From: a virus
Virus record (IMG/VR): IMGVR_UViG_3300037882_002580
Location: 1 to 42,687 of that record
Direction: 5' to 3' (one strand)
DNA length: 42,687 nt
Part shown: piece by piece, positions 25,974-42,341 of the stretch
Numbering within the stretch: position 1 is the first letter of the stretch
How the letters are laid out: the number at the start of each line of letters is the position of its first letter
Translations under genes and position numbers: made by a program
Notes under the pieces: model-generated
The model's database searches: none
Told to the model about the DNA's origin: nothing
The model's input: only the letters and a program-made list of their open reading frames with translations

Positions 25974-28018
25974 GAAGTCATTTGTTCAGCTACCTGCATT
26001 GCTCGTGACATTCCTCCAGATACTCCAGGGTTCACTGCTTCTTGGGGCCGTTGCTCTGCAACGGCTTGTGGCTGCATTTGTGTTTGGGTATTCATATCCT
26101 CAGCAACCTTGCGTTCGAGGTTTTGTCGCGCGATGTCTTTGTGTGACATGGCATATTCGAGAAGCACATCAAACTTAGCGCCGAGTGTAGAGCGACGGTC
26201 ATTCGCGAAGTCAACGATGCGCTGTATGAATGCGATGTTTGCGCCATACCACTGCATAGGCTTCTTGCCGTTCAATATGACCTGGATAGCCTCTGAAGCC
26301 TTTGCAAGGGCCTTTTTGTCTGAATAGGTCTTGAGGTCTGTCGCAGATGCAAGGTCCGTGTCGTCGTATTCACCAACTGAGCGCAGAATCTCCTCAGCAC
26401 GCCATTTCGGGTTTACCTGGGGTGCAAGAAGTGGGTCGGCTCCGATAGCGGCAAGGGCTTCCTTGCGCTTTTCCTTCTTCATTTCGCTGTCTTGAATCTG
26501 TTTGTCGGTAGAGACAATGAGAACGTCCACATCCTTCTTCAAATCAAGGTCGAGGCGGGTAATTTCATCCCAATCCCACCCGTCCTCACCCAAAACACGT
26601 ACAGCAAGCTTCGACGGCATGTGCATTTTGAGCCCGTCAACGTATCGCTTTCCTATCTGCGCCATCATCTGCTGGAATGGCTCTGAAGCCCACCCGATGC
26701 GCTTAGAGACGCTCTTTTGCTCTGCAAACGATACTGAGGCTTTCTTTGAAACTTCTTGTGTGCTGCCCATTGAGAGATCTGTAGCCCCTACGTTGCGGCC
26801 CACCGAGCTTGTCATCCAGTCAATCAGGTTCACTGTGCCGTTGAGGTCTGCAACTTCAAACTTGTAAATACCTTCTGCAATGCGGCGCGTACCACCCTTG
26901 GTATCAGCCGATACAAGCGCATCTGGTCGGTGCATCGCTTCATCAAGCTTGCGGACATCGGGGAACATGTCTTTGTCGAATGCACGAGCACCAAAGTTCT
27001 TCTTCTCGCGGTTGGTGAGTTCCTGGTTGAACATTGCAATAATTGCATCCGCTGCGGGGTACAAATCATCTGCATCGCTCTTCGAGAGCAAGTTTTCGTC
27101 ATCTTCGTGGGTGGTGTATGGCGTCCATGAGTATCGGCCTGCAACTGCAAGCTCATCCCACTTGTCGAAACGCACCCAAGTCTGTGTCCATGGATGGAAT
27201 ACCAAAAGCCATCGTTTGCCGTCCATCTCCATCACCCATTGACAGAGGTTGTACACGTGCTGGCCAACATAAGAGCTCTTATCAGGGTCAAGTCCGAGCG
27301 GCTTAAATCGTGAGAGCTTGACGCTTGCCTCCTGGTTATCAGGCACCGGAAGATAGTCGTTGTTCGCGGTACGTTGCAACAATGCAGTCACCTGCTTTTT
27401 GTCATACAGTCCCTGTACGGCCCTCTCTACGATTTCACTCTGCGTGACTTCAATGTTTTCCTCTCCTGCAAAGAGGTGGTTTTCAAGGTCAAGGCCGCCA
27501 CGTGGCTGGAAGTGGAAGTTCTTGAGGTTCACCACATCAAAAACGCTGCGATATTCAGGGTCGCTCTCTGCATAGATTTTAGGAATAGCCACACCATTCA
27601 TGATGGCGTGCTTGCGGAGCATTCTGAGCTTCCCATCCCACTTACTCGATGAATCGGTGTTCATCGTCTCCATGCGGAAAGCGGCGTTTATCTTCTGTAC
27701 TTTGAAATAGTCCGATGCTTCACCCTCTTTGAATGAAAGTTGTATAGGTGAGTTGTGAAGCGCGTTGAGAGTATCTATCATGCCGGAAAATACCGGAATG
27801 GGAACATTGAAAAGCTGCCTAAGCTTCTTCCCCGTCTTTCCATCGTAAAGCTCCCAGTATTTGGCGAGACGCTTCATGCGGGGTGCCTTGAAGTCTGTCG
27901 AGGCAAGGAGCTGTCGAGTGGCAATCTTCACTGCTTCCTCAGCGAATTGCTCTCTGGTGAGGTTTTTGTATCGAGAAGCGAGACCTTCTAGGTCCTCAAA
28001 TGATTTTGAATCATCCAT
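25970..28018 (-). CDS. Portal protein
   Basis: 682 aa, a size typical of P22-like portals. The N-terminal wing domain runs through YWELYDGKTGKKLRQLF and IPVFSGMIDTLNALH; a middle mixed domain holds VFDVVNLKNFHFQPRGGLD; the C-terminus is helical and Gln-rich (MNTQTQMQPQAVAEQ), as in portal barrels. It follows the terminase block and precedes the scaffold. There is no Shine-Dalgarno site, but TGATACAAT lies 7 nt before the ATG. Confidence 0.85.
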   Translation of the reverse strand: MDDSKSFEDLEGLASRYKNLTREQFAEEAVKIATRQLLASTDFKAPRMKRLAKYWELYDGKTGKKLRQLFNVPIPVFSGMIDTLNALHNSPIQLSFKEGEASDYFKVQKINAAFRMETMNTDSSSKWDGKLRMLRKHAIMNGVAIPKIYAESDPEYRSVFDVVNLKNFHFQPRGGLDLENHLFAGEENIEVTQSEIVERAVQGLYDKKQVTALLQRTANNDYLPVPDNQEASVKLSRFKPLGLDPDKSSYVGQHVYNLCQWVMEMDGKRWLLVFHPWTQTWVRFDKWDELAVAGRYSWTPYTTHEDDENLLSKSDADDLYPAADAIIAMFNQELTNREKKNFGARAFDKDMFPDVRKLDEAMHRPDALVSADTKGGTRRIAEGIYKFEVADLNGTVNLIDWMTSSVGRNVGATDLSMGSTQEVSKKASVSFAEQKSVSKRIGWASEPFQQMMAQIGKRYVDGLKMHMPSKLAVRVLGEDGWDWDEITRLDLDLKKDVDVLIVSTDKQIQDSEMKKEKRKEALAAIGADPLLAPQVNPKWRAEEILRSVGEYDDTDLASATDLKTYSDKKALAKASEAIQVILNGKKPMQWYGANIAFIQRIVDFANDRRSTLGAKFDVLLEYAMSHKDIARQNLERKVAEDMNTQTQMQPQAVAEQRPQEAVNPGVSGGMSRAMQVAEQMTS

Positions 28019-28025
28019 TGACAGA

Positions 28026-28034
28026 ATTGTATCA
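28026..28034 (-). promoter_or_regulatory. Extended -10 box fused to the upstream stop, portal promoter
   Basis: TGATACAAT, whose TGA is the stop codon of the 91-aa zinc-finger gene (28032-28034). The portal ATG is 7 nt downstream, implying a leaderless portal mRNA. Confidence 0.5.
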
Positions 28035-28307
28035 AACAGGTTCGCTCTTGTTACGTCTTTCGCTCATCACACAGTGACTGCACTTTCCTTTTCCATGATG
28101 CTTCACAATAGTGAGGGGTAACGAGCAAGATGCGCATGTTCGTTTGTCAGCATAGTGAATCTCCAGTGCCTTTCCGCAGTGTGTGCAAGGTTGATATTTG
28201 ATGAGGAGATTCTGTCGGCGTTTGCTTTTTGTGTAGGGAACACAAAAGAACTTTTCGCAATGGTCGCACCGCTTTTGAATACATTTAATTTTCAAGGGGT
28301 GATTCAT
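28032..28307 (-). CDS. 91-aa multi-zinc-finger protein
   Basis: Contains four cysteine pairs: CDHCEKFFC, CTHCGKALE, CASCSLPL and CSHCVMSER, with interspersed histidines and lysines. Two zinc sites are likely. Strongly basic, so it may bind nucleic acid. It overlaps the neighbouring 51-aa zinc protein gene by 23 nt. HNH-like or treble-clef origin is possible; function unknown. Confidence 0.65.
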   Translation of the reverse strand: MNHPLKIKCIQKRCDHCEKFFCVPYTKSKRRQNLLIKYQPCTHCGKALEIHYADKRTCASCSLPLTIVKHHGKGKCSHCVMSERRNKSEPV

Positions 28308-28440
28308 ACGGCGGCTGTTGGTACTGTTCTACGCAGCCATTTGGGCAGTAGAGCACCCCTGTAACGGGGTCACGGGCGCATTTGTCATCGGGGAAGAGCT
28401 GTGAACAGTGTTTGCATCGAAAGAAGTTGTCGCGGGTCAT
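28285..28440 (-). CDS. 51-aa zinc-binding protein
   Basis: ATG at 28438-28440 overlaps the stop of the 95-aa gene (ATGA). Cysteines CKHCSQLF and YCPNGC are spaced like a zinc ribbon. The C-terminal tail is Pro/Gln-rich. The coupling supports translation despite the overlap with the next gene. Confidence 0.6.
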   Translation of the reverse strand: MTRDNFFRCKHCSQLFPDDKCARDPVTGVLYCPNGCVEQYQQPPYESPLEN

Positions 28441-28724
28441 TTGCAGCTATTGTTAGTGCTTACCTTGTGTGTGAGGTGCCAGTATCCACACTTGGGGCAA
28501 GAGTAGATTCTCAACATTGTAGCAGTGCCGTGGCGTATCAGTGCGTCTCGGGTGTGTTTAGCTACCACTCGCGTGGGGTATGACTTCTTCTCTCCGCAAC
28601 GGGGAAGTTGACTAGGGTGATTTGGGTGCTGCTTTCGAAATAGCCGTTCACGTTCAGGTGCACGCCTCTTTATCGGCTCAAAGAGCACTTCATCATCCTC
28701 TGGAGGGGGGAAGGTCTGTGGCAT
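28437..28724 (-). CDS. 95-aa zinc-ribbon phage protein
   Basis: Acidic, proline-rich N-terminus (FPPPEDDEVLFEPIKRR), a helical middle and a C-terminal ribbon with CPKCGYWHLTHK, a motif I recall from small phage proteins near terminase genes. It begins 3 nt after TerL. Function unknown. Confidence 0.65.
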   Translation of the reverse strand: MPQTFPPPEDDEVLFEPIKRRAPERERLFRKQHPNHPSQLPRCGEKKSYPTRVVAKHTRDALIRHGTATMLRIYSCPKCGYWHLTHKVSTNNSCK

Positions 28725-28727
28725 GGC

Positions 28728-30332
28728 TTATTCATCTAGGCCGCTGCGCTCATAAGGTGCCTGCACATAGTTGCTTCCTGGGCGTGGTGCAGTAACTACA
28801 GCATGGTTCTTGAGCTGGTAGGCGATTGCGCATGCTATCAGGAGGTCAAAATGGCGCGTGGTAAGGCGTACATCGTCATCGCGGTCCATGAGGTCGTCAC
28901 GGGTGTAACTGCGTGCCTCAGCTATCAAATCAGGGTCTGAGAGAAGCAAGTGGCCGTCACCTACTGCCTTCATAAGCTCAAATAGCATTTTTGGCTTGGT
29001 ATCGCGGTTGGTATTCCATCCGTAGATGCGTGTGCGCGGGGGAAGCCCTGCCCGTGTGATTTCAGGTTCCTCAAAGTAGATGCGGGGGTAGTCCTGGTGC
29101 TTCAATACACCGATGCACATATCAAACTTGTTGTTTTCCGGTGCAATGAGTGGCTGTCCGAATAGGTCGCCCTGGCGTATGAGCTCATAGCCAAAAACAT
29201 CGGGCTTGATGGTGTTGCTCTTGAATGTTGCCACCACACGTGAGGGTATGGTTGAAAAGTCGATTATGACACTGGTGCTGCTGTCGAGCCCTACACCTCC
29301 CGCAACGTCTGCACCAACGCCATAGCGGTGCGACGGGTCAAATGGGTAGAATATGCGCAAGTCTGCCGATACTCGTACCGGCTCGCGTTTTGGCTGAAGG
29401 TCCAGCGTTGCACGATCAAAGAACACATCCGCACTTGCCGATGGTTCACAGAGATATTCCCCTTCAAAATCGTCTGCATTCTGTCTGAGGCGGTCAATGG
29501 CTTCTGTTGTGTATGCCGCTGGCCATGCAGAAACACCCCCACTGGTGATAGGCACAATCAAAACATCATAGACGCCTTTCTTTTCGACAAGCTTGTGCAC
29601 GTTTCCGCGCTCTGAAAGGTAGTTGCAGGTGTAGATAGATGCACCACCACGTGCGAGACCGTTTTTCGCCTCCTCCATGTTATCCCATATGGCCTGTGAC
29701 TCCACTGCACTGCGTAGGGTTTTGCGGGTTTCAAAGTCGTCAAACCATATGAGGTCTGGGCGTGCATCTTCCTGGAGCTGTCCGCGTTGGTCTGTGCCCA
29801 CTGTGCCCGCCCTCACCTTCACACCTGTGGCCGTGGTGAATGAAGCCATGGTCTCTTCACGCTTCTCTTCTGTCTTCACGAAAATCTCGGTGTACAGGTG
29901 GGCAACGATGGGGTTGATGAGCATGTTGTACACGTCGGTGACAGTCTGCTTTGCGTTCGCGATGTCCTTGGTGAGCACCTTGATGTATTTGATGCTGTGG
30001 TCTTCATCGTTGGCAATAGCAAAGGCGAAAAAAAGCTTGGTGCGTGTGGTCTTGGCTGCACCACGAAAGGCGATGTCTACGAATGGCTTTACGCCGCGAT
30101 AGGCATTGAGATTTTTCTGGTCGATGTCTTTGTGAAATGGTGCGTCTTCAACCTTGAAGTATTGCGGATAGTGCCAACGTGCCCAAAGCTGAAACTTAAA
30201 AAGCACCTCATTGTCGGGGGTATCAGAGTTAAAGCCGAAGAGTGCACGCTTCTCTTCTGGGGTTCCGTCGTCGAGGATTTCCTCAACTAAAGATTTGTTT
30301 GATGGCTGTTTTTGCTTTTTCTCTGTGCTCAT
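28728..30332 (-). CDS. terL: Terminase large subunit
   Basis: 534 aa. The ATPase domain has a variant Walker A (FRGAAKTTR, about residues 89-97) and Walker B plus catalytic acidic residues in LIWFDDFE (194-201). The RNase H-like nuclease follows, with D342 (GADVAGG), E399 (APENN) and D496 (HFDLLIACA). It translocates and cuts DNA at the portal. The gene overlaps the small subunit by 50 nt. Confidence 0.92.
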   Translation of the reverse strand: MSTEKKQKQPSNKSLVEEILDDGTPEEKRALFGFNSDTPDNEVLFKFQLWARWHYPQYFKVEDAPFHKDIDQKNLNAYRGVKPFVDIAFRGAAKTTRTKLFFAFAIANDEDHSIKYIKVLTKDIANAKQTVTDVYNMLINPIVAHLYTEIFVKTEEKREETMASFTTATGVKVRAGTVGTDQRGQLQEDARPDLIWFDDFETRKTLRSAVESQAIWDNMEEAKNGLARGGASIYTCNYLSERGNVHKLVEKKGVYDVLIVPITSGGVSAWPAAYTTEAIDRLRQNADDFEGEYLCEPSASADVFFDRATLDLQPKREPVRVSADLRIFYPFDPSHRYGVGADVAGGVGLDSSTSVIIDFSTIPSRVVATFKSNTIKPDVFGYELIRQGDLFGQPLIAPENNKFDMCIGVLKHQDYPRIYFEEPEITRAGLPPRTRIYGWNTNRDTKPKMLFELMKAVGDGHLLLSDPDLIAEARSYTRDDLMDRDDDVRLTTRHFDLLIACAIAYQLKNHAVVTAPRPGSNYVQAPYERSGLDE

Positions 30333-30714
30333 CGCTTATGGTGAAGTGACCGTGGGCGTGTTTCTCGGGTGCATACGAGCCTTTAAGTTTGTACGCCATG
30401 TCGAGTGCCGCCTTTACTGCCTGTGTGTCCGGTTGGTCTGAGAGCTCATCACCATCTGGTGTGCGTATGACTTCCCGTTTATTGAGAAGCTCAAGGTGTC
30501 GGCGTGCTAAAAGGTCATCAGGCAACGCTTCTGCTATAGCGTCAATGATTTGAGGTTTCTTTAAGTTCTCAGAAGCGATGGCTGCGGCGGTCATGTAGTC
30601 CGTCGTGTCATAGTTGGCAAGGGCTGCATGTACCCCTGGCCTGCCTTCAACTATGTCCTTCACAAAACCAGCGGCTTTTCTTGAGAGCTTTCGCTTCTTA
30701 GGTTTTGTTTCCAT
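30283..30714 (-). CDS. terS: Terminase small subunit
   Basis: 143 aa. N-terminal basic region and helix-turn-helix (SRKAAGFVKDIVEGRPGVHA ... TAAAIASENLKKPQIIDAI) followed by an oligomerisation helix and a charged C-terminus. This is the usual form of terminase small subunits, and it directly precedes TerL. Recognises phage DNA for packaging. Confidence 0.8.
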   Translation of the reverse strand: METKPKKRKLSRKAAGFVKDIVEGRPGVHAALANYDTTDYMTAAAIASENLKKPQIIDAIAEALPDDLLARRHLELLNKREVIRTPDGDELSDQPDTQAVKAALDMAYKLKGSYAPEKHAHGHFTISDEHREKAKTAIKQIFS

Positions 30715-30883
30715 GTTTAGTATAGGGGTTTCTAATCTCCATCCCGTTCACTGAGAGTGTATCACCTGGCTCTACTAGCGTGCTGTACACCGAGTTTTTG
30801 CGGGTAAAAGCATCTATGAATCTTGCACGCCATGCAGTAAAGACCAGCTTCTTCTTCCACTCTCGTTCAAACTTGGTTTCCAT
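30698..30883 (-). CDS. 61-aa hypothetical protein
   Basis: Basic, helical N-terminus (METKFEREWKKKLVFTAWRA) and a short beta tail (TLSVNGMEIRNPYT). The start overlaps the stop of the previous gene (TAATG) and the end overlaps TerS by 17 nt, so it is embedded in the operon. Not recognised. Confidence 0.55.
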   Translation of the reverse strand: METKFEREWKKKLVFTAWRARFIDAFTRKNSVYSTLVEPGDTLSVNGMEIRNPYTKHGNKT

Positions 30884-31362
30884 TAGTATGCTGCCGTATT
30901 TGCAGCTTCAATTGCATCATTGAACCGTGCAATAGCTGCTTCCTTGCGGCGTATCTCGGCTTCAGACATGAGCACTGAGTTGCTGAGTTGGTCTGCAAAG
31001 TTCTGCGTGACATCACGGCGTTCTACAAAAGCCCTCACTTCCTTGTTCGGGATGCTATTGTCTTTCTTTGCAGCTTCGATGTCGGCAATGATGGTGGAGA
31101 GCTTCGACTGTGCATCGTCTGCATCATACTTTTGTTCGATGAGGCGTGTTTTGATGACGGAAAGCTGTGCGAGTTCTTTATTGCGCTCTTGCTTGAGTAC
31201 GAGCACCTGGAGAGCTTGGTTGTCTGGCTCGCCGTCTTCATAAGGGAAAAGCACAATGCCGTTTGAGACAATCATCTGTGCCCCCATGTGCTGTTTATAT
31301 TGTGTGAGAAGTTCTGAAAGTGCTGCTGAATCGGTGATGGCGAAAGATGCGTATTTGAGCAT
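30883..31362 (-). CDS. Coiled-coil hypothetical protein upstream of terminase
   Basis: 159 aa. A short N-terminal domain (MLKYASFAITDSAALSELLT) leads into a long coiled coil (ERNKELAQLSVIKTRLIEQK, DVTQNFADQLSNSVLMSEAE). Its place before TerS suggests a packaging or early head role. No enzyme motif seen. Confidence 0.65.
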   Translation of the reverse strand: MLKYASFAITDSAALSELLTQYKQHMGAQMIVSNGIVLFPYEDGEPDNQALQVLVLKQERNKELAQLSVIKTRLIEQKYDADDAQSKLSTIIADIEAAKKDNSIPNKEVRAFVERRDVTQNFADQLSNSVLMSEAEIRRKEAAIARFNDAIEAANTAAY

Positions 31363-31372
31363 AATTTGGTAG

Positions 31373-31645
31373 TTATTTTTTTGATATAAGCTTCATCTGT
31401 ACTTTCTTGATAGGAAACGGCTCACCAGCCTTTTTGCACAATTTTACAAAATGCCTTTCTGCAAAATTCGGCTTGCCTATAGTAAGCACGACACTCAAGT
31501 TTCCTTGACTTACCCTTCCACTAAAGACTGGGCGTGTAGCTCGCACAATTAAGTTTGGGGCGAGTATTTTTGTGGCCTTCCTGACTTTCTTGTCTTTTAA
31601 ACATGCTAGTACAGAAACAACTGCTTTATTTATTGTTGGTGTCAT
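31373..31645 (-). CDS. 90-aa basic hypothetical protein
   Basis: I take the ATG at 31643-31645, only 3 nt after the 3' end of tRNA-Met. The frame stays open upstream through the tRNA to an ATG at 31885, but translating a tRNA gene is implausible. The product is basic and beta-rich (NLSVVLTIGKPNFAERHFVK). No family recognised. Confidence 0.6.
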   Translation of the reverse strand: MTPTINKAVVSVLACLKDKKVRKATKILAPNLIVRATRPVFSGRVSQGNLSVVLTIGKPNFAERHFVKLCKKAGEPFPIKKVQMKLISKK

Positions 31646-31648
31646 ATG

Positions 31649-31721
31649 TTCAGGTGCCTGGAGTCGAACCAGGTATTTCACGGTTATGAGCCGTGCGACT
31701 TCGCCGTTCGTCTTCACCTGA
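31649..31721 (-). tRNA. tRNA-Met (CAT)
   Basis: Full cloverleaf: acceptor TCAGGTG/CACCTGA, D arm closed by GAC/GTC, anticodon stem CACGG/CCGTG with loop CTCATAA (anticodon CAT), T arm CCTGG/CCAGG with loop TTCGACT. Discriminator A; CCA is not encoded. CAT could also be tRNA-Ile after lysidine modification. Confidence 0.93.
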
Positions 31722-31893
31722 ATGTGGGTGGAACTCGCGTTGTGTGGCAGGGCGGGCATCAGACCACTGAAGGTAAGCGACCGGAGTGAGATGATGCTGG
31801 GTGAAGCACCTCGTGTTTTTAGAGCGTATGAAATTGAGCCACACCAGAGAACGGGGCAATAATCAGTCACCCCTACTCGTTCCATCCTCTAAA
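31722..31893 (-). other. 172-nt leader between the late promoter and tRNA-Met
   Basis: The stretch contains an open minus-strand frame that starts at ATG 31885, 8 nt after the -10 box, and runs into the tRNA. Its translation has no recognisable domain. I see no second tRNA. It is more likely an untranslated precursor region. Confidence 0.35.
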
Positions 31894-31902
31894 ATTGTAC
31901 CA
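31894..31902 (-). promoter_or_regulatory. Extended -10 promoter of the tRNA/late operon
   Basis: TGGTACAAT on the minus strand, right after the terminator of the DUF3768 gene and upstream of tRNA-Met and the terminase genes. No -35 match. Confidence 0.5.
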
Positions 31903-31939
31903 CAAAAACCCGCCTGCCGCATGGTGTGCGGGGCGGGTT
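31903..31939 (-). terminator. Intrinsic terminator after the DUF3768 gene
   Basis: AACCCGCC and GGCGGGTT form the outer stem, CCGCA/TGCGG the inner stem, followed by a T run. It separates the accessory region from the late operon. Confidence 0.85.
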
Positions 31940-31948
31940 GGGGATTAC

Positions 31949-32266
31949 TCAGTACTCACTCCTGTGCATGATGGTCATCACGCGAGTTGTCAGTTTTGGA
32001 TTCGCTGGGTCGTCTGAGCCAAACTCCATCGACACGTCATAGTAATCCAGCTTGAAGAAATACGTCTCATCCTTCACTGTCACCGCACCAAAATCATGCT
32101 CATGGTGTGGGTCATTGTCGTCTGTGAAGGTGTCAAACGTGGCCACAGCCGTCAACACCATGGCACGAGTGGCAGCATCAAGGCTTGCAACATCGTGCGA
32201 AAGCATCACGCGTCCACCGATGAATGACTTGCGGAAGCTATCATTTAGCTGAGCGATTGTATTCAA
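31949..32266 (-). CDS. DUF3768 family protein
   Basis: 105 aa with a TTG start (32264-32266) supported by GGGAGGG (32271-32277) 4 nt upstream. The patterns FRKSFIGGRVMLSHDVASL, DNDPHHEHDFGAVTV, YFFKLDYYD and TTRVMTIMHRSEY match DUF3768, a small family I recall mostly from Alphaproteobacteria. Function unknown. It has a promoter of its own (TGATACAAT at 32336-32344) and a terminator, so it is a mobile-type single-gene unit. Confidence 0.85.
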   Translation of the reverse strand: MNTIAQLNDSFRKSFIGGRVMLSHDVASLDAATRAMVLTAVATFDTFTDDNDPHHEHDFGAVTVKDETYFFKLDYYDVSMEFGSDDPANPKLTTRVMTIMHRSEY

Positions 32267-32285
32267 AGAACCCTCCCATGCTCAA

Positions 32286-32311
32286 ACGGCCCAAGAAAAG
32301 TCTCGGGCCGT
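32286..32311 (-). promoter_or_regulatory. Leader hairpin of the DUF3768 gene
   Basis: ACGGCCC/GGGCCGT 7-bp stem between the promoter and the ribosome site. The following T run is short (GTTTG), so it is a partial terminator or a translation control element. Confidence 0.4.
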
Positions 32312-32335
32312 AAAGAACAAGGGAGGTCTGTGGTT

Positions 32336-32344
32336 ATTGTATCA
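32336..32344 (-). promoter_or_regulatory. Extended -10 box directly before the methyltransferase stop end
   Basis: TGATACAAT on the minus strand begins right after the TAG stop of the methyltransferase gene (stop 32345-32347). It would drive the DUF3768 gene with a leader of about 60 nt. Confidence 0.5.
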
Positions 32345-32983: not shown

Positions 32984-33026
32984 GTATCGCCTCTCCTGTG
33001 TTGTGGGCGATGCCTATTAAGTACAT

Positions 33027-33093
33027 TGACAAACGTGTGTCACGGTGCGGCATGTTGCAGGGGGAGCGTGGTATTGCGAAGGGTGCGGCATGT
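33027..33093. promoter_or_regulatory. Inverted and direct repeats upstream of the methyltransferase
   Basis: TGACA/TGTCA arms at 33027-33042 and a perfect 12-bp direct repeat GGTGCGGCATGT at 33044-33055 and 33082-33093. They lie 45-110 nt before the methyltransferase start and may be binding sites for a regulator or the methylase itself. Confidence 0.4.
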
Positions 33094-33110
33094 GCGCTCA
33101 AAATAATTTC

Positions 33111-34435: not shown

Positions 34436-34472
34436 CCTCCATGTGCTTCTAGCTCAAGTTTAACACGGGGTT

Positions 34473-35190: not shown

Positions 35191-35194
35191 CGAC

Positions 35195-35224: not shown

Positions 35225-35304
35225 CTATCACACAAGCTACATATAAGAATGTACTTTGATTAAGCCATAAAATGGTAAGTGTGCTGTGATTTTGCACATC
35301 TCAG

Positions 35305-36330
35305 TCACACAGCTTTAAACCCCTTTTCCTCGTGAATGTAAAAGTCCGGCCTTTCTCCCGCGAGCGACCATGCGCCGTTGTGATTGTCGAAGCTCATCAT
35401 CGGCATGGCGAAGTCTCTGCGTCCGTCTGTGATTTTGAAACGCTCATCAAGGCGAAACCCGATAAAGTTTGAGCCCTTCCCCTCGGTAATTTTGGCATAC
35501 AGCTTCATGGCCGTTTCCATGTCGCCCTTGTTTGAAAACACAATAAGCACGAATGCGGGTATGGGCGTGGGGAACTTGAAGTACTTTTGGTATTCAGAAA
35601 TTGCTCCATCCTTTCGGCCTATAAATGCGCGGTACAGCCGTAGCATTTTCTCCACGGTCTTTTTCTTGCCCATGCCGGTGGTGTCTTCGGTGCCGCGATG
35701 CACCTCAAGAAAAAAGAGCCGTTGTTTGCCGCCATAGTCGATGATGAAACGTTGGTCTGGTTTCAGGGTGTACTTTTTCCCGTCAAGTTCCAGGTCGTAT
35801 GCGTTTGGTAACACCGAAACGCGGTGTGACGGTATGAATGTGCGCTCGCTGAACTGCCCTACCCCTATGCGGATTTCTGCCGTGATGATGTTCTGCATCA
35901 TGGCGTGCATTTTGTGGGCCTCGGTGTAGTAAAAACCTTCGGGATAGAGGCGGTGTTCTTTTGCAAGTAAGACGATAGCTGCATCACCGCATTGCTGCAC
36001 AATGTGCTGGTGACGGCTCGGCCATCCGTTCCCTATTGCGGGAAATTGCCATGCGGGGTGGTTGAGGTAGTGGCCCTTTTTGAGCTTCCCGTTTACGTCG
36101 TAAGTGATGGTTTCGTGAAAGAAATCGGTGAGCATCTGGCCGTTGCTTCGCGGGTCCACAAGGCCGTGTATTCGCAGTAATTCTTTGCAGTGGTCACTTG
36201 GTAAGCCGTCGGGATACCACGAAAGCTCCTCAAGAAGACGCAAACGTGCGCCTGTAGGTTTGTGTGGAGTCTTTCCCGTTGGTGTGCGGCGATTCGGGTA
36301 ACGGCGGCCCCTGCTGTCGTGAGTTTGCAT
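35305..36330 (-). CDS. Replication-relaxation-family-like protein
   Basis: 341 aa. N-terminal winged-helix region (ARLRLLEELSWYPDGLPSDH), a middle helical region, and a C-terminal nuclease-like core: PDQRFIIDYGGKQRLFFLEV, HRGTEDTTG, then a Lys-rich helix (KKKTVEKMLRLYRAFIG). This PD...ExxRGTE...K...Y order recalls the Replic_Relax family (PF13814) of plasmid and integrative element proteins, related to PD-(D/E)xK nucleases. The neighbours are two VirD4/HerA-like ATPases, the combination expected for DNA mobilisation. It starts after a 215-nt leader holding strong inverted repeats. Assignment at family level is moderate. Confidence 0.65.
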   Translation of the reverse strand: MQTHDSRGRRYPNRRTPTGKTPHKPTGARLRLLEELSWYPDGLPSDHCKELLRIHGLVDPRSNGQMLTDFFHETITYDVNGKLKKGHYLNHPAWQFPAIGNGWPSRHQHIVQQCGDAAIVLLAKEHRLYPEGFYYTEAHKMHAMMQNIITAEIRIGVGQFSERTFIPSHRVSVLPNAYDLELDGKKYTLKPDQRFIIDYGGKQRLFFLEVHRGTEDTTGMGKKKTVEKMLRLYRAFIGRKDGAISEYQKYFKFPTPIPAFVLIVFSNKGDMETAMKLYAKITEGKGSNFIGFRLDERFKITDGRRDFAMPMMSFDNHNGAWSLAGERPDFYIHEEKGFKAV

Positions 36331-36558
36331 GCCGTGATTTTAGAGAACGACGGGCGGGAATGTCAGTGCGGGGTGTTGCTGTATGTGCGCTCTGTACAGA
36401 AAGCGGGAGCATCCTCCCTAAATTGTGGGTAGTCCTACCGCCATGGGTAGGCGCACGCCTGGATGTCTCCTGATGAGCGGGGTGTACACCTGGCGCATCG
36501 GCCAATATTCGGCCCACAAAAGCTTTCTGTGCAAAGAACCATTTGTTGCCTCAGTATA
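36331..36558. other. Non-coding stretch before the relaxation-like gene
   Basis: About 228 bp without a credible ORF on either strand. Its main content is the inverted-repeat element at 36396-36529. An extended -10 box (TGATATACT, 36553-36561) at its right edge faces the relaxation-like gene. Confidence 0.5.
36396..36529 (-). other. Structured intergenic element, candidate oriT or regulatory RNA
   Basis: Closing stem ACAGAAAGC (36396-36404) and GCTTTCTGT (36521-36529) encloses several hairpins: GGGAG/CTCCC (36405-36419), two alternative GGTAG/CTACC pairings (36427-36450), the palindrome GGTGTACACC (36481-36490) and near-palindrome GGCC-AATATT-GGCC (36500-36514). It lies in the leader of the relaxation-like gene. 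Confidence 0.5.
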
Positions 36559-36561
36559 TCA
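36553..36561 (-). promoter_or_regulatory. Extended -10 box fused to a stop codon
   Basis: TGATATACT, whose TGA is the stop of the 37-aa gene. It would transcribe the structured leader and the relaxation-like gene. Confidence 0.5.
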
Positions 36562-36672
36562 CGTCAACGGCCTGCGTTCCTCTCGCAATCCACAAGGACA
36601 CTGCCAGATTTCAGCGTCATCATCACAACGTTGAAACTTGAGCAAGCGGTTGCATTGTGGTTCGTGCTTCAT
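36559..36672 (-). CDS. 37-aa mini zinc protein
   Basis: ATG at 36670-36672, TGA at 36559-36561. Sequence pattern MKHEPQCNRLLKFQRC then IWQCPCGLREERR gives four cysteines and a basic tail. An extended -10 box (TGATATACT, 36679-36687) ends 6 nt before the ATG, suggesting a leaderless transcript; the TG of that box is the stop codon of the ATPase gene. Confidence 0.5.
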   Translation of the reverse strand: MKHEPQCNRLLKFQRCDDDAEIWQCPCGLREERRPLT

Positions 36673-36678
36673 AGAAAA

Positions 36679-36687
36679 AGTATATCA
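36679..36687 (-). promoter_or_regulatory. Extended -10 box fused to the ATPase stop codon
   Basis: TGATATACT on the minus strand; its TGA (36685-36687) ends the VirD4-like gene. Identical in sequence to the box at 36553-36561. Confidence 0.5.
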
Positions 36688-38190
36688 CTTCGGCTCCTGG
36701 TCAATATCATCTTCTCCCCACACCTTGGGTTTCGGCCCTGTTAAGCCGCGTGGGGGTTCTGGGGGAAGGACTTCGCCTTCGTGGATGAATGGAGTGACGG
36801 TGGTAGCGGGCACACCTTTGATTTCGGGTTTTGGTGGGCGCGTTTGTGGTGGGCTTGTGATGATGGCCACGTTGGGGTCGTCGATTCCGGATACTGCAAA
36901 GTGTTTTTCAGGATATGAGGCTTTGAATTGCACACCGCAATGATGCAGTGCATCAAGAACGTCAGGGTCCTTGATATTGCTCTCGCGTTGGTGCGCGAAC
37001 GTGAAGGCCATCTTCATCTTCCGCGCCTGGTCGATGATGGTCGAGATGTTCGGGTCGGTGGCGATGTAATCGTGGCATTCGTCGATGTAACAGTACGTGG
37101 GCAAACGATATTGTGCGGCGACGTTGCCGCGTTGCTGTGAGACTGAAAGCAAGGTCGCAATGATGAAGCGTCCGAAAATCTCCGTGCCTTGTGGGCCTAA
37201 AAGAGCTTTGTCGGTGTCAACTAAAATGCAGCGCGGCTCTTGCAGCAATGAGTAAAAATCCAGGGCGCGTTTCTGTGTGAACATGCGGGCGAATGAGGGG
37301 CGTTGCAGTAGGCTATCAAGTCGCCATTGCAGCTCTTTCTTCGTGTCGGTGTACTGTTTTGGGTCGTCAAATGAATTGGTAAAAAAGAGCCGTGCAGGAG
37401 GCTGTAGGCGGGGGATGATTTGCCGATAGTGGTCCAGTCCTTTTGGCTGCAACAGTTTCAACATATCGGCAACGGTGCCCTCCGCTTCCATCACCAACTG
37501 CACCAAAAACGTCCATAGGGTGTTTTGCTTTGGGGTGAAGGTGCCACCTTCGCCTAGGGTTGCAGAAAACACGTAGGTGATGAGGTCGATTTGTGCCGTG
37601 TACATAATCTCTGCGTCACGAGCATTTTGTGGGGTCCGTGGCCGCGCAAAAATGTTCATGGGTGTGGTGGTGTCGATGGTGGTGCAAGGGTATGCGCGTT
37701 CGATGCGCCCTAAAAGCTCGTGCTTGCCTTGGCTGTCCATCACCAAAACAGTCGCCTGCTTCTTGGTCACTTCTTCCAGGTCTTGAAAGATTAGGTTTTC
37801 AAGTAGTGTGGTTTTGCCGCTTCCGCTTTCACCCGTTACCCATGTGTGCTGGAAGCGTCTTTTTGAGGCAAGGTTGGTGTAGAGGGGGTAGTCTTGAAAG
37901 TAATCCTGTTTGCTGTAGGGGAAAGGATTTGAGAACGCTTTTATAAGGTCAGCATCGCTCTTTTTCGGAATTATATATCGCGTATCATAGAAAATGCGGA
38001 AGGGTGTCTCTTTCCCGTACCGTTTGATAACGTCGGCCACTTGCTGAAATGTGGTGATTGCTTCTTCGGGGTAGTTATATCGTGCGTCGTGATCATACAT
38101 CGCGGTAAGGACGATGGCTTTTTCAACATCGGTGCACCACGAAAGGTCAACTTGCGGGAGAATGTCGCGCTCAATTTGTTCAGGTGTCAC
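36685..38190 (-). CDS. VirD4/TraG/HerA-type DNA-pumping ATPase
   Basis: 501 aa. Walker A GESGSGKT at residues 120-127, Walker B YCYIDECHD at 366-374 and the arginine-finger/sensor-like FAHQR at 398-402 identify an active RecA-fold ATPase of the conjugation coupling-protein/HerA group. No transmembrane helices at the N-terminus, unlike classical VirD4. The C-terminal 60 residues are Pro-rich and disordered. It overlaps its degenerate partner by 4 nt. Such ATPases feed single-stranded DNA or protein to a secretion channel; here no type IV secretion genes are present in the window. Confidence 0.82.
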   Translation of the reverse strand: MTPEQIERDILPQVDLSWCTDVEKAIVLTAMYDHDARYNYPEEAITTFQQVADVIKRYGKETPFRIFYDTRYIIPKKSDADLIKAFSNPFPYSKQDYFQDYPLYTNLASKRRFQHTWVTGESGSGKTTLLENLIFQDLEEVTKKQATVLVMDSQGKHELLGRIERAYPCTTIDTTTPMNIFARPRTPQNARDAEIMYTAQIDLITYVFSATLGEGGTFTPKQNTLWTFLVQLVMEAEGTVADMLKLLQPKGLDHYRQIIPRLQPPARLFFTNSFDDPKQYTDTKKELQWRLDSLLQRPSFARMFTQKRALDFYSLLQEPRCILVDTDKALLGPQGTEIFGRFIIATLLSVSQQRGNVAAQYRLPTYCYIDECHDYIATDPNISTIIDQARKMKMAFTFAHQRESNIKDPDVLDALHHCGVQFKASYPEKHFAVSGIDDPNVAIITSPPQTRPPKPEIKGVPATTVTPFIHEGEVLPPEPPRGLTGPKPKVWGEDDIDQEPK

Positions 38191-39236
38191 AGCCCCTCCA
38201 TGTATCGTTCAATGTTGCCGTCTACGGTTGTCGCGGGCGTACCGTACCATTGCTTCGTCTGGTTTCTCAAGCGGCGAAAGTTGCCAGGGCGTGCGGGGTA
38301 GCTGTGGGCGTGGGTGTGGATTTGGATAGTTTTTTGGAGGCGTACCAAGGCTTGACCATCGGGGATGTCGATGAGGTTTGAATTGCCAGGGTCAACGGCA
38401 AAATGTGCTTCCAGGGTTTTCGCGTCGGCAACACCAAGCCGTGCCGCCATGATAACAGCGGTGTGCACCATTTTCTCCCTGAGCGCGTCCGGCATTTCGT
38501 GCAGATAGTTGCAGGCCATGATGGGGATGGAAGGCCCCACGTGAAGCAAGGGGCGGGCGATAAAGGACACGCCCTGCATCTGTGACATTAGAAGTGCAGT
38601 CACCAGGTCGAAACGGTCGCCTTGAGGTAAGTCCACAATGAGGATACCAGGCTGCTTCAAGTCTCTTTTTTGAGACAGGATGCGGCGAACGGCTTTGTCC
38701 GTTTTGATGACGGTGAAGCGGTTGTCGAGCGAGTTGGTCTGGTCGTGTTGTTCGCGGCGAGTCCAGGCGTCAAAGTCCTCAAGCTCATGTCGTATGACGG
38801 GGTCTTTTATCATCCCCAGCACCCGCGCGCGGAACTGTGGGGAGCTGTAAAGGTAGGGTAACTGAAAGATGGTGCCGCTCGCTTCCACGAGAGCAAGGCA
38901 GGCCGGTATGAGGTACCTGTGGAGCTGTGTGGTGGTCACTGTTGAGGGGTATGCCGCTTCGATGGCGTCAGGTACCAGGTTGGCTGTGGGGATGTCCTTG
39001 AGGGGGTTAAAGCCCACGGGTCGGTCGTCATACACTTCAAAAAGTACCGTGTCGTGTGTTCGGTCTTTCGGCAGGAATGGCACCACGGCGTTTGCATCAC
39101 CAAAATACGAAACGGTTTTGCCTTCGTGGGCCGCGTCCAAAAACATCCTGGTCAAGGTTTCTGGGGAGCGCAAAATCAGCATCGTGGTGTCGTCGATGGT
39201 GAGTGGTGTGGTGTCGAGTTTGGTTCCTAGCTGCAT
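38187..39236 (-). CDS. Degenerate VirD4-like partner ATPase
   Basis: 349 aa. Shares the family phrase VGFNPLKDI (residues 74-82) and the core block KQPGILIVDLPQGDRFDLVT followed by IPIMACNYLHEMP, which aligns with the Walker B region of its neighbour, but I find no Walker A loop and the Walker B acidic pair is lost. It therefore looks like a non-hydrolysing paralogue that could pair with the active ATPase. The 4-nt overlap with that gene implies equal expression. A promoter-like TGTTACAAT lies at 39334-39342. Confidence 0.65.
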   Translation of the reverse strand: MQLGTKLDTTPLTIDDTTMLILRSPETLTRMFLDAAHEGKTVSYFGDANAVVPFLPKDRTHDTVLFEVYDDRPVGFNPLKDIPTANLVPDAIEAAYPSTVTTTQLHRYLIPACLALVEASGTIFQLPYLYSSPQFRARVLGMIKDPVIRHELEDFDAWTRREQHDQTNSLDNRFTVIKTDKAVRRILSQKRDLKQPGILIVDLPQGDRFDLVTALLMSQMQGVSFIARPLLHVGPSIPIMACNYLHEMPDALREKMVHTAVIMAARLGVADAKTLEAHFAVDPGNSNLIDIPDGQALVRLQKTIQIHTHAHSYPARPGNFRRLRNQTKQWYGTPATTVDGNIERYMEGL

Positions 39237-39333
39237 ACATGGCGACGCGATAACAAACGAGCATCACCGTGGCGTGTACAGGAGAAAGTTTGGTAGCGTG
39301 CCGCCGTCTGTGCGGTCGGAACTGTCCAGTGTC

Positions 39334-39342
39334 ATTGTAACA
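39334..39342 (-). promoter_or_regulatory. Extended -10 promoter of the ATPase pair
   Basis: TGTTACAAT on the minus strand, about 98 nt before the ATG at 39236. No -35 match. Confidence 0.4.
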
Positions 39343-39382
39343 GTTGTGTGCCACCTATCATCGTCCGTCTGTCCTCGCAGAG

Positions 39383-39489
39383 CGGGACGACTTCCCTACG
39401 TTCACCCGAAAAGGACACGCCCTGCGTTGTCCTTGAGGGCGTAAGTCTTCGAGAGATAAGGAGAAGATGAAGGTAGGGAAGTCGTCCCG
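39383..39489. repeat. 17-bp perfect inverted repeat enclosing nested hairpins
   Basis: CGGGACGACTTCCCTAC (39383-39399) and its exact complement (39473-39489). Inside, two mutually exclusive hairpins overlap: AAGGACA/TGTCCTT (39411-39417 with 39428-39434) and ACGCCCT/AGGGCGT (39417-39423 with 39436-39442). Imperfect pairing extends outward (GTCCGTC near 39363 with GACGGCGAT near 39499). Confidence 0.8.
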
Positions 39490-39532
39490 TAAGGGCGGAC
39501 GGCGATGTAGGTGGAATTGTATAGTGAAATGG

Positions 39533-39546
39533 CCGTTTGCAAACGG
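39533..39546. promoter_or_regulatory. 14-bp palindromic operator
   Basis: CCGTTTGCAAACGG is a perfect palindrome with core TTTGCAAA. A related 16-bp palindrome with core TTGCAA lies at 40571-40586, so both may bind the same regulator, possibly the AlpA-like protein. A -10-like TATACAAT is just downstream on the minus strand (39518-39525). Confidence 0.6.
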
Positions 39547-39624
39547 AATTGGCCCGATAGGGATACAAAGTACTGCCCGATACTGAAAAAGTGTAAGCGA
39601 ATTGCGGTCGTATCGGGGTGTGTT

Positions 39625-40053
39625 TTACCAAGTAAAGTGAAGTATGGCCACACCGCATGCAGCTGATACTGCAAGGAAGCCTAGGTCAAGTTTGTTCATA
39701 TCGGTGCCGTCGCGGTAGAGCAAATAGACAACAAAAAGTGCGCCGCAAAGAATTAGGGATTGTGCGGCTCGTGTTCCGTTTAAGTAAAATTCGTGGGTGA
39801 AGTATCTGTTGAATGTTTCGTAGATAAAAAGCCCAGCAAGTGCCATGAGAGCAAGGACGGAAGCGTCGGCGTCGCGGCGCTCAGTTATGATTGCAATGGT
39901 GTTTATGGCAATGTAGAGCGCCGGTACAGCAGCAACAATGTTGCGCAGTGTGGTGTTTTCGGGTGGCCGTTCGTCTGGTGGTGGGGGTAACTGTTGTGCG
40001 GGGCGGTCTTTGTTCAGTTGCTTCTTTAAAAACTCTTTCAGTTCGTCGCTCAT
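39625..40053 (-). CDS. Four-helix membrane protein, paralogue of the 81-aa neighbour
   Basis: 142 aa. The N-terminus DELKEFLKKQLNKDRP followed by PPPPDERPPE is shared with the adjacent gene. Then come four hydrophobic segments (about residues 35-56, 64-80, 93-111 and 121-138). A membrane protein next to the transfer-like ATPases could be the anchor for them. No named family. Confidence 0.65.
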   Translation of the reverse strand: MSDELKEFLKKQLNKDRPAQQLPPPPDERPPENTTLRNIVAAVPALYIAINTIAIITERRDADASVLALMALAGLFIYETFNRYFTHEFYLNGTRAAQSLILCGALFVVYLLYRDGTDMNKLDLGFLAVSAACGVAILHFTW

Positions 40054-40054
40054 C

Positions 40055-40300
40055 TTAGCTGTCCAAGTGTGGGGCGATAATGAGCCAGAAAAGCACCATG
40101 ATAATGCCTGCGATTGCAGCGATGTTGGCTATGGTATTACTTTGATACCAACCAAGCCACAGCGCAAAAAACGACACGGCTGCTAGGGCCAATATGGCAA
40201 GATTAAAGTGCGGGGTTTCTTTCGGTTTTGGTGGCGGTGGTGGCTCGGGCCGTTCTTTGTCGAGCTGTTTTTTAAGAAAGTCCTCTAGGTCTTTGCCCAT
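40055..40300 (-). CDS. Two-helix membrane protein with shared N-terminal motif
   Basis: 81 aa from the ATG at 40298-40300, with GGGGGA just upstream; a TTG at 40312 is an alternative. The N-terminus KDLEDFLKKQLDKERPEP then poly-Pro matches its neighbour (FLKKQLxKxRP plus PPPP). Two hydrophobic segments follow (ILALAAVSFFALWLGWY and IAAIAGIIMVLFWLIIA). The tandem pair arose by duplication of the cytoplasmic motif or by domain swap. Confidence 0.65.
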   Translation of the reverse strand: MGKDLEDFLKKQLDKERPEPPPPPKPKETPHFNLAILALAAVSFFALWLGWYQSNTIANIAAIAGIIMVLFWLIIAPHLDS

Positions 40301-40356
40301 GCCATCCCCCAAAAATGCAAAGGAGAGGAGGTTGGACCCTCCCCTCCCGTCTCCCG

Positions 40357-40551
40357 TTAGGGAGATGCAGTGTCGCGTTTGGAAATCATTTCCGCCTGCC
40401 AGTCCGTAATGTCCTCCAGTACCCAGGCAACTCTGTGACGACCAAGGCGGACCCGTTTGGGAACCTTTCCTTCATCCTCCAGGCGTTTCCAGTGTTGGCG
40501 GCTATACGGTTGCATTTTCGAAAGTGTCTTCCACGATATAAAGGTAGTCAT
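40357..40551 (-). CDS. AlpA/excisionase-like helix-turn-helix protein
   Basis: 64 aa from the ATG at 40549-40551; a longer in-frame start at 40599 would run through the palindrome. The pattern TTFISWKTLSKMQPYSRQHW, then EDEGKVPKRVRLGRHRVAW and DITDWQAEMI, is the AlpA/MerR-type wing-HTH used by phage excisionases and integrase activators. It lies 65 nt after the integrase gene. A TCTCCC/GGGAGA hairpin overlaps its end (40350-40365). Confidence 0.8.
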   Translation of the reverse strand: MTTFISWKTLSKMQPYSRQHWKRLEDEGKVPKRVRLGRHRVAWVLEDITDWQAEMISKRDTASP

Positions 40552-40570
40552 TGCAAGTCTCCAAAATGGA

Positions 40571-40586
40571 GAGGCTTGCAAGCCTC
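40571..40586. promoter_or_regulatory. 16-bp perfect palindrome before the AlpA-like gene
   Basis: GAGGCTTGCAAGCCTC, with a further TTGCAAG at 40551-40557 and a TCTCC/GGAGA hairpin between them (40558-40572). Probable operator or excisionase site. Confidence 0.6.
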
Positions 40587-40615
40587 GGGTTAGTGCCAAG
40601 GCGATGTTTTTTGTA

Positions 40616-41668
40616 TCAGCTTTTCTGGCTGTTTACGAGTCGCAAAATGTGCGCTTCGTATGCTTCGACTGCGAGGCGCATTTCGGGTTGGTGGGTGTAA
40701 CGCTGATACGTCGAAACGATGCCGCCGAAGCTTCCGCTCACATGGTTGAGCAGGCGTTCCGTGATGTGAATCGGTGTGCCGATGCGGGCATGCGTCGTGG
40801 CGTAGGTGCGGCGCAAGTCGTGGAGCGTCCAGGGGTCAATGGGTACCGCTCTGTCGAGCCGCGCTTTCGCTTTGCTCCACCCGTTGAACGTCAAGGCTCC
40901 GCTTGACAGTAGTGGTAAGGCGGTAGCGGGCAATGGGAAGGTGTGCTCGCGTCCGTTCTTGCTGTGGGCGGCGGGGAGTGTGGCGGTGTCGCCGTTCACA
41001 ATGAGGTTCTGGATTTCGCTTTTCCGGCACCCTGTCAAAATCAGAAGCTTGACGGTGCGGCCAAAAATGTCATCGCCGGAAGCGTTCCATACGGCGCGGA
41101 GTTCGTCATCGGTGAGCACCCTATCCCGTGGCGTTTCTTTGTACGGCATGCGCATGGCGGTAAGGGGTGAGTGCTCAAGAAGGCCACGGCGCACACACCA
41201 AAAGAAAAAGGTGCGGAGGTATTTGAAGGTGTGGTTTGCCTCTGATGGGGTTTCGTGCAGTTCATCGAGCAACGATTGCACGTCATGGCGCGTCACCAAG
41301 TGAAGGGATTTGGCCCAGGTGCAATGTTTGTTCATCACCCGTTCCATGGCCGCATGGGATTTGAGGCGTGATACGTGGAGCTTAAGAAAGTCGTCACGAG
41401 CCTCTAGAAACGCGCTGGCGGGGACGGTTCGTGGGTTTGTGGCCAAGAGTGCTTTTGCCCGTTTGCGTGCTTCCTGGAGGCTCACAGCGGGCCATAGGCC
41501 CACTCGTATGCGTTCCCTCAGTTTGCCACGGGTAACTACAAAGGTTTTGCGGGTTTTGCCGATGCGGATACCAAAGGCAGGCAATAGTGCGTCACCGTAA
41601 TAGCCTGGTGTTTTGACTGTCTCAATGAAGCGTTCAGTGAGCGCGTTTTGTCTCTTTTTGTCTCCCAC
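40616..41668 (-). CDS. int: Tyrosine-type integrase
   Basis: 350 aa with a GTG start at 41666-41668. The N-terminal part (residues 1-80) is the arm-binding DUF4102-like domain (PGYYGDALLPAFGIRIGKT ... RIRVGLWPAVSLQEARKRAK) of P4-type integrases. The catalytic domain shows R215 (TGCRKSE), K237, H283 and R286 (HDLRRTYAT), H309 (LLNHVSG) and tyrosine Y321 (STYQRY). It catalyses site-specific integration. tRNA-Arg lies 177 nt upstream, the type of target used by this family. It implies a temperate life style. Confidence 0.93.
   Translation of the reverse strand: MGDKKRQNALTERFIETVKTPGYYGDALLPAFGIRIGKTRKTFVVTRGKLRERIRVGLWPAVSLQEARKRAKALLATNPRTVPASAFLEARDDFLKLHVSRLKSHAAMERVMNKHCTWAKSLHLVTRHDVQSLLDELHETPSEANHTFKYLRTFFFWCVRRGLLEHSPLTAMRMPYKETPRDRVLTDDELRAVWNASGDDIFGRTVKLLILTGCRKSEIQNLIVNGDTATLPAAHSKNGREHTFPLPATALPLLSSGALTFNGWSKAKARLDRAVPIDPWTLHDLRRTYATTHARIGTPIHITERLLNHVSGSFGGIVSTYQRYTHQPEMRLAVEAYEAHILRLVNSQKS
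41646..41664. repeat. Direct repeat, int-start copy (GAGACAAAA pair)
   Basis: On the minus strand two GAGACAAAA units overlap the first codons of the integrase. The same 19-20 nt block recurs at 41821-41840 with one extra T/A, directly beside tRNA-Arg. Possible integrase arm-type or core sites. Confidence 0.6.
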
Positions 41669-41680
41669 TTGGCCTGTGCT

Positions 41681-41713
41681 CCCGTGTTACAGCATGTGCC
41701 ATATGTACACGGG
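41681..41713. promoter_or_regulatory. Imperfect inverted repeat upstream of int
   Basis: CCCGTGTTACA and TGTACACGGG pair over about 10 bp around GCATGTGCCATA. It lies 13 nt before the integrase start and may be an operator or a recombinase site. Confidence 0.45.
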
Positions 41714-41820
41714 AATTGTGGAAAAACAAGGGCTTGGGTGCCGTATGTGCGGAGTGTTACATGGAAAATAGCGCTTAGAAGGCTGTAGTCGGCGGGTTAT
41801 ATATCAAGGGGTTAGGTGTG

Positions 41821-41840
41821 TTTTGTCTCTTTTTTGTCTC
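41821..41840. repeat. Direct repeat, tRNA-side copy
   Basis: TTTTGTCTCTTTTTTGTCTC, 20 nt, 4 nt from the 3' end of tRNA-Arg. Partner of 41646-41664. Confidence 0.6.
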
Positions 41841-41844
41841 GTGG

Positions 41845-41920
41845 TGGCCTCCCCGGACGGACTCGAACCGCCAATCGGCAAATTAGAAATTTGCTGCTTT
41901 TCCAGTTTAGCTACGGGGAG
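41845..41920 (-). tRNA. tRNA-Arg (TCT)
   Basis: Acceptor CTCCCCG/CGGGGAG (7 bp), D arm closed by GCT/AGC, anticodon stem GCAAA/TTTGC with loop TTTCTAA (anticodon TCT, reads AGA), T arm GGCGG/CCGTC with loop TTCGAGT. Discriminator G and an encoded CCA. Its 5' end overlaps the HNH gene by 14 nt. Confidence 0.95.
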
Positions 41921-42323
41921 CCAGTCGACTCAATACATCGCGGCGGTTGAAAGTGCCACTGCATTTTCGCGAACAGAAGTCGCGCTTGTAGCCTTTATTT
42001 TTGCCAAGCTGATTTGTAAATCGATCAAAATGGGTCTGACATTCGGGGCACTCAAGTTTTGTAACACTGCGGGGCTTGGTGTGATGTCGTGCGTGGTCAC
42101 TGGATGATATGAGGTCAAGATTTGAAAGCCGATTGTCGCGCTTGTTTTCATTGCGGTGATGCACATGCTCATGCCGCAACAGTGCGCGGCCTAACTCTAC
42201 CGATTTGATTAGGCGGTGTACGTGTATGTACCCTGTGCTCCAGGCGTTTGGGTGGTCTGGGCAATAAACTGCTCTGTAGCCTCCACATGTGGATTTGCGG
42301 CTCCAGTCTGGTGTGATTTGCAT
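41907..42323 (-). CDS. HNH endonuclease overlapping tRNA-Arg
   Basis: 138 aa from the ATG at 42321-42323 (GTG at 42329 is an alternative). The phage HNH core is GYIHVHRLIKSVELGRALLR, HEHVHHRNENKRDNRLSNLD, LISSSDHARHH, followed by a C-terminal zinc finger (CPECQTHF and FCSRKCSGTF). The last codons and stop lie inside tRNA-Arg. An extended -10 (TGATACAAT, 42333-42341) is 9 nt upstream, implying a nearly leaderless mRNA. It may be a homing nuclease tied to the tRNA locus. Confidence 0.82.
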   Translation of the reverse strand: MQITPDWSRKSTCGGYRAVYCPDHPNAWSTGYIHVHRLIKSVELGRALLRHEHVHHRNENKRDNRLSNLDLISSSDHARHHTKPRSVTKLECPECQTHFDRFTNQLGKNKGYKRDFCSRKCSGTFNRRDVLSRLAPRS

Positions 42324-42332
42324 ATACACACC

Positions 42333-42341
42333 ATTGTATCA
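42333..42341 (-). promoter_or_regulatory. Extended -10 promoter of the HNH gene
   Basis: TGATACAAT on the minus strand, 9 nt before the ATG at 42323. Confidence 0.5.

Follow-up and report, generated by a model that had tools for sequence, protein, structure and literature searches.

The window analysed here is the whole of IMG/VR virus record IMGVR_UViG_3300037882_002580 (42,687 bp), from a group of uncultured tailed phages, and its putative portal and fibre genes are preceded by a shared promoter layout in which a sigma-70-type -10 element lies a few nucleotides before the start codon and a -35 box, with middle bases specific to each phage, lies at a fixed distance upstream. We think it likely that these are late promoters, that their -35 is read by a phage factor, most plausibly the zinc-ribbon protein encoded at 28032-28307, and that the genes heading the operons are translated from leaderless mRNAs. 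The motif, its spacing, the gap to ATG, their conservation, the concordance of the -35 within a phage, and the lack of SD (Shine-Dalgarno) sites are visible in the sequences themselves; the transcription start, leaderless translation, the temporal class, and the identity of the reader are deduced from them. All genes called in the window are on the minus strand, and three of them (start codons at 28018, 19496, and 13970) share one arrangement: GTAAC, exactly 18 nt, TANNNT, 6-7 nt, and ATG. A further promoter with the same box and spacing has a short A-rich leader and no SD site before ATG 25565. The promoters, followed by the genes around them, are:

28016-28054, minus strand: late promoter 1; GTAAC 28050-28054, 18 nt, extended -10 TGA-TACAAT 28026-28034, 7 nt, ATG 28018; predicted leaderless
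25594-25622, minus strand: late promoter 2; GTAAC 25618-25622, 18 nt, extended -10 TGC-TACGAT 25594-25602, 28 nt, ATG 25565
19494-19531, minus strand: late promoter 3; GTAAC 19527-19531, 18 nt, TATAAT 19503-19508, 6 nt, ATG 19496; predicted leaderless
13968-14005, minus strand: late promoter 4; GTAAC 14001-14005, 18 nt, extended -10 TGT-TACACT 13977-13985, 6 nt, ATG 13970; predicted leaderless
28728-30332, minus strand: terminase large subunit (TerL), profile phrog_38
28032-28307, minus strand: 91-aa zinc-ribbon protein with four CxxC, encoded immediately before late promoter 1; candidate -35 reader
25970-28018, minus strand: putative portal gene, 682 aa, named by its position between terminase and capsid
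25347-25565, minus strand: small conserved gene after late promoter 2
22989-24281, minus strand: major head protein, profile phrog_267
17916-19496, minus strand: glycine-rich tail/fibre gene, Gly_rich_2
10584-13970, minus strand: large fibre-like gene, 1128 aa from ATG 13970

Promoter layout and its conservation

Structurally, the layout is that of a sigma-70 extended -10 promoter, with TGNTANNNT accompanied by a -35 region 17 ± 1 nt upstream at fixed spacing and with a consensus of TTTGNTANNAT. The hexamer TTGACA, which extended -10 promoters do not require, is not matched at -35; GNNACA stands there instead, and the TTG positions are variable. A profile search gave no match for the putative portal gene, whose start codon is fixed by nearby in-frame upstream stops in many relatives; for the large fibre gene, the alternative start GTG 13994 would put the box inside the gene.

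Searches with TerL and the portal gave more than 80 related contigs, including a close group of 25 members (TerL about 52-69% identical to that of the window); 14 distant relatives were compared as well. In all 25 close relatives TANNNT precedes the portal ATG by 6-9 nt (20/25 at 6-7 nt, with the peak at 7 and 6), in 16 of them in the form TGNTANNNT, and all 25 lack a usably spaced SD site there; the 14 distant relatives show no TANNNT peak before the portal. Aligned on the -10, the close relatives yield the portal consensus G-N-N-A-C-R-A-A, spacer, T-T-T-G-N-T-A-N-N-A-T, of which TTTGNTANNAT is the -10 part, and its ACA ends 17 nt before TA, which is the normal sigma-70 geometry without the TTG. 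A later portal search repeated the layout (L112, L117-L121, L127, L129-L131, and L133, the last with GTTAC and GATAAT). In many members the portal -35 shares sequence with the final codons of 28032-28307 (Arg-His/Asn/Asp-Lys). In L028, L033, L035, and L078 it spans or follows the stop codon of the upstream gene, and at the promoter kept in relatives after 19528-21435 (before 17916-19496) it begins 4-7 nt past the upstream stop in most members, in non-coding DNA; its placement in these four phages and at this second promoter shows that the -35 is a DNA signal.

A phage-specific -35 box and its candidate reader

When the middle bases of the box were left free in the scan, they were found to vary between phages and to agree between the two to four promoters of any one phage. 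The triplet is GTA at all four promoters of the window, GCG in L007, L014, and L085, TCC in L041, GAG in L018, GTG in L032, GTA in L028, GCC in several others, and GCT in L033 and L035, which also have G at position 6, so that at least 10 different triplets occur in about 30 phages. A single fixed GTAAC motif, tried over all relatives, gave no excess because the box is phage-specific; the phages' own pentamers had 31 further ATG-linked matches (two of them portal sites that the filter failed to remove), compared with 1.5 for the mean other pentamer. In a non-circular test, which accepted any NNNAC-N17/18-TANNNT in the syntenic interval and made no use of the phage's own motif, the portal triplet recurred before 25347-25565 in 14/15 phages (permutation mean 2.5) and before 17916-19496 in 11/11 (permutation mean 2.1). 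Shuffling triplets among phages, which leaves shared ancestry in, never gave more than 8 at either site in 20,000 trials. Shared ancestry would fit this agreement less well than a coevolving trans-acting reader, since the triplet itself has changed repeatedly; agreement within a phage combined with change between phages thus points to such a reader, probably phage-encoded.

Mechanistically, we propose that host RNA polymerase would recognise the constant extended -10 TTTGNTANNAT, with the G-N-N-A-C-R-A box at fixed spacing standing in for the usual -35, and that a phage-encoded DNA-binding factor, most likely 28032-28307, would read this box and turn on the portal, capsid, and fibre operons. 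A somewhat unlikely alternative is that the promoters are real and their -35 is read by a host sigma factor (or a phage sigma), the variation reflecting different hosts. The spacing is canonical (ACA, 17 nt, TA), ACA is the second half of TTGACA, and hosts may indeed differ between phages; however, the TTG positions of TTGACA, which sigma-70 region 4 normally fixes, are the ones that vary here, beside a constant -10, and among 13 phage records (several being fragments) no sigma region 4 domain reached the cut-off. A weak helix-turn-helix of 54 aa at 7905-8069 (E 0.02) does not represent a shared family.

Among the core families tested, distances in the 28032-28307 family, which has eight invariant Cys in four CxxC, gave the best Mantel correlation with -35 distance (r 0.41, P 0.0005; 0.40 given TerL) after removal of the C-terminal 14 residues, and the neighbouring portal was next best in larger sets (0.33). 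At the residue level, the pairing of residue 81 with the third triplet base came top of 3242 residue-column tests: C goes with Met (10/10) and G with Arg or Lys (5/5), T is found with Arg, Arg, and Gln, and A with Gln, Met, Met, and Arg. Residue 77, also near the top of the column tests, sits in the same zinc knuckle (C76-x77-H/R78-C79-x80-M81). Phages held out from this comparison included C cases, never basic at residue 81, and two T cases with Ile or Val; overall, residue 81 is basic with G in 5/5 and Met or Gln with C in 16/16. These patterns suggest, as a lead and not as proof, that 28032-28307 is the best candidate reader. More tentatively, and with doubt outweighing confidence, it might found an undescribed family of zinc-ribbon late activators that act at -35 beside host RNA polymerase, read G-N-N-A-C by a simple code in the last zinc knuckle that pairs residue 81 with the third base, and drive leaderless late mRNAs.

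We also considered as a reader the product of 30883-31362 and rejected it, its correlation being weaker and the protein a coiled-coil. This 159-aa protein, encoded directly upstream of the terminase genes, has a predicted coiled-coil tail and no named function, and is present in 14/14 relatives checked.

Several observations weigh against this interpretation of the promoters and their reader. The family-wise permutation P for residue 81 is 0.10-0.14 over all columns (0.005 within 28032-28307 alone), and the held-out phages L117 and L119, with Gln, are exceptions to the C-to-Met rule, with no new G cases in the held-out set. The sequences compared are related, linkage could inflate the correlation of 28032-28307, whose gene adjoins promoter 1, and part of the -35 conservation at promoter 1 could be protein-level, the box being in the last codons of that gene. 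No similarity of the protein's sequence to a known activator was found, and it matches no Ogr/Delta family in Pfam at E up to 1. Finally, promoter 2 belongs to this promoter class and yet has a leader, so that leaderlessness is not one of the requirements of the class.

Predicted leaderless operon heads

The initial annotation had named five -10 boxes lying 6-9 nt before start codons, and each was found where it had been placed, on the minus strand and at the distance given:

28026-28034, minus strand: TGATACAAT, gap 7 to ATG 28018 (putative portal)
36679-36687, minus strand: TGATATACT, gap 6 to the 37-aa open reading frame (ORF) 36559-36672
42333-42341, minus strand: TGATACAAT, gap 9 to ATG 42323 (HNH gene), or gap 3 to GTG 42329
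13977-13985, minus strand: TGTTACACT, gap 6 to ATG 13970
19503-19508, minus strand: TATAAT, gap 6 to ATG 19496

That first inspection saw the -10 alone and overlooked the GTAAC 18 nt upstream of three boxes. It was right that all five boxed genes lack an SD site, although this is not special to them, because only 5/59 called ORFs of the window carry one. Its inference of leaderless starts finds good support in sequence comparison at the portal and two fibre genes and is weak for the other two: the box before the 37-aa ORF has no -35 of the GTAAC class, and that before the HNH gene has a gap of 9 and no clear -35. The TGA of three boxes (28032, 36685, and 36559) doubles as the stop codon of the upstream ORF. 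As a separate observation, the exact 9-mer TGATATACT stands at both ends of the 37-aa ORF (36553-36561 and 36679-36687), its TGA a stop codon each time.

The first reading had proposed counting such boxes at a fixed distance from starts against background. Over the whole window TGNTANNNT is not enriched (71 vs 67 expected); at a gap of 6-9 nt from first ATGs it occurs 4 times against 0.18 expected from internal ATGs (P 4e-5), and TGNTACAAT occurs 8 times on the coding strand and 0 times on the other strand of the window. Bare TANNNT at gap 6-9 is marginal, with 10 in the window vs 1.3 expected from gaps 10-30 and P of only 0.046 against the AT-rich gaps 0-5. Once the late promoters are removed, a genome-wide leaderless layout is near background in the window, where most genes are packed head-to-tail with no box; the systematic use of leaderless starts that had been proposed would therefore apply to the heads of late operons and not to the whole genome. 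A scan with a -10-only matrix proved too unspecific as a promoter finder.

Measured over all own-motif promoters, the distance between -10 and ATG falls into two classes, 6-11 and 25-33 nt, with a single case of 15. If +1 lies the usual 6-7 nt after the -10, the estimated leaders are 0-5 nt or roughly 19-27 nt long. The portal and the two fibre genes of the window have gaps of 7, 6, and 6, an AUG start, and no SD, and transcripts with a leader of 0-5 nt are the best reading of these sequences. With the -10 placed 6-7 nt (up to 11) before ATG, as it is at the window's large fibre gene and at two of the three loci that are conserved, transcription would begin on the AUG or no more than 5 nt away from it, and the gene heading the operon would be translated as a leaderless mRNA. 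The long-gap class is the 25347 locus, where relatives mostly have gaps of 25-33 (L007 and L032 are short there), and one reader would therefore serve leaderless and leadered genes. The two-mode distribution resembles that of Lactococcus cremoris, in which leaders are shorter than 5 nt or about 40 nt, with none between 4 and 14 nt (PMC10986495).

Alternatively, the boxes could be promoters and yet most translation of the portal and fibre genes could come from polycistronic read-through mRNA, coupled to the upstream gene, with leaderless transcripts making a minor contribution. Genes are tightly packed, nearly all without an SD, with an upstream stop at a distance of 13-62 nt. Most genes, which overlap or abut their neighbours, must therefore in any case be translated by coupling or by some other means that needs no SD. 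For the operon heads we hold coupling to be rather improbable as the main route: the gap of 6-7 nt persists although relatives place the upstream stop anywhere between a site ahead of the -35 and one past the -10, a constancy for which coupling gives no need. Separately, SD sites are nearly absent throughout the phage group, leaving initiation inside operons to other means.

Chance matches to a degenerate pattern, favoured by the lack of overall enrichment and the two of five cases with no -35, are very improbable as a general account given the position-specific enrichment, the 25/25 conservation, and the within-phage -35 agreement: these results refute chance at the portal promoter and the post-19528 promoter, and it stands for the 36679 and 42333 boxes.

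Genomic context and known systems

Beyond the late region, the window contains:

40616-41668, minus strand: tyrosine integrase, profile-supported
41907-42323, minus strand: HNH gene
36559-36672, minus strand: 37-aa ORF, for which no homologue was found

The integrase adjoins a tRNA-Arg(TCT) at 41845-41920, which possibly marks the attachment site, and together with an AlpA-like protein (40357-40551) they likely form an integration module. An ARAGORN call of tRNA-Met at 31648-31721 lies inside ORF 31373-31885 and has no Rfam support at the gathering score. Both ends of the window (187-342 and 42531-42687) hold a 157-bp direct repeat, 93% identical and not an exact terminal repeat, and 390-1019 encodes a tandem NSG-type repeat protein that matches Pentapeptide_2 and has relatives in other contigs of the group. 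Upstream of gene 24314-25198, at about 25199-25255 on the minus strand, two tandem hairpins are followed by an A-rich stretch and then ATG, with no T run after them; they are kept in nine phages with compensatory changes in 7/11 predicted pairs (stems such as CCTCG-loop-CGAGG, TCTCG-loop-CGAGA, and CCGCG-loop-CGCGG) and are a possible structured leader or processing site.

TerL relatives in genomes were limited to one Parcubacteria metagenome-assembled genome (MAG), one groundwater MAG, and two gammaproteobacterial MAGs. Across 379 genomes of the Parcubacteria MAG's phylum, the MAG itself had the only TerL match. In this genome 0/145 genes have a TG-box at gap 6-9, a null that says nothing about the real host because its phage belongs to the distant group, which lacks the portal box.

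If the proposed scheme is true, sequence alone would suffice to read the late regulon throughout an uncultured phage lineage, with promoters placing start codons, and the sites and candidate reader would form a natural experiment in protein-DNA coevolution. Leaderless translation of structural genes could also be tested directly in these phages, whose hosts would be predicted to translate leaderless mRNA well.

Among known systems, P2 Ogr and P4 Delta are small phage zinc-finger proteins that activate late promoters from about -55. The 28032-28307 product resembles them as a small phage zinc protein associated with late promoters, and differs in that its box would be at -35. T4 middle promoters keep the host sigma-70 -10 (often extended) and have, instead of the -35, a box that a phage activator reads; this MotA box is centred at -30, 12 ± 1 bp from the -10 (PMC2988021). 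The likeness to this MotA/AsiA system lies in a short phage-specific box that takes over from the -35 next to a constant host -10. The sequence of the box and its distance from the -10 are different, however, the genes served here are structural and predicted to be leaderless, and no Pfam match named MotA or AsiA was found among the window proteins scanned; the promoters work like T4 middle promoters and are not members of that class.

The novelty that the initial annotation had seen in leaderless use by a phage was overstated, as leaderlessness itself is not new for phages. The lambda cI mRNA is leaderless and begins at its AUG (PMC9031893), but cI is a single regulatory gene, whereas structural operons are concerned here. 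In cluster O mycobacteriophages (Corndog and others), leaderless SigA-like promoters were predicted whose +1 coincides with the first base of the gene's start codon, and the structural operon has one of these; the passage that describes them mentions no phage-specific covarying -35 (PMC4351075). Their mycobacterial hosts, moreover, are themselves rich in leaderless genes. The open-licence full texts searched did not yield the combination of leaderless late promoters, a covarying box, and a zinc-ribbon protein as its candidate reader. Compared with these precedents, the new point is that the middle bases of the -35 are specific to each phage and concordant between the promoters of one phage.

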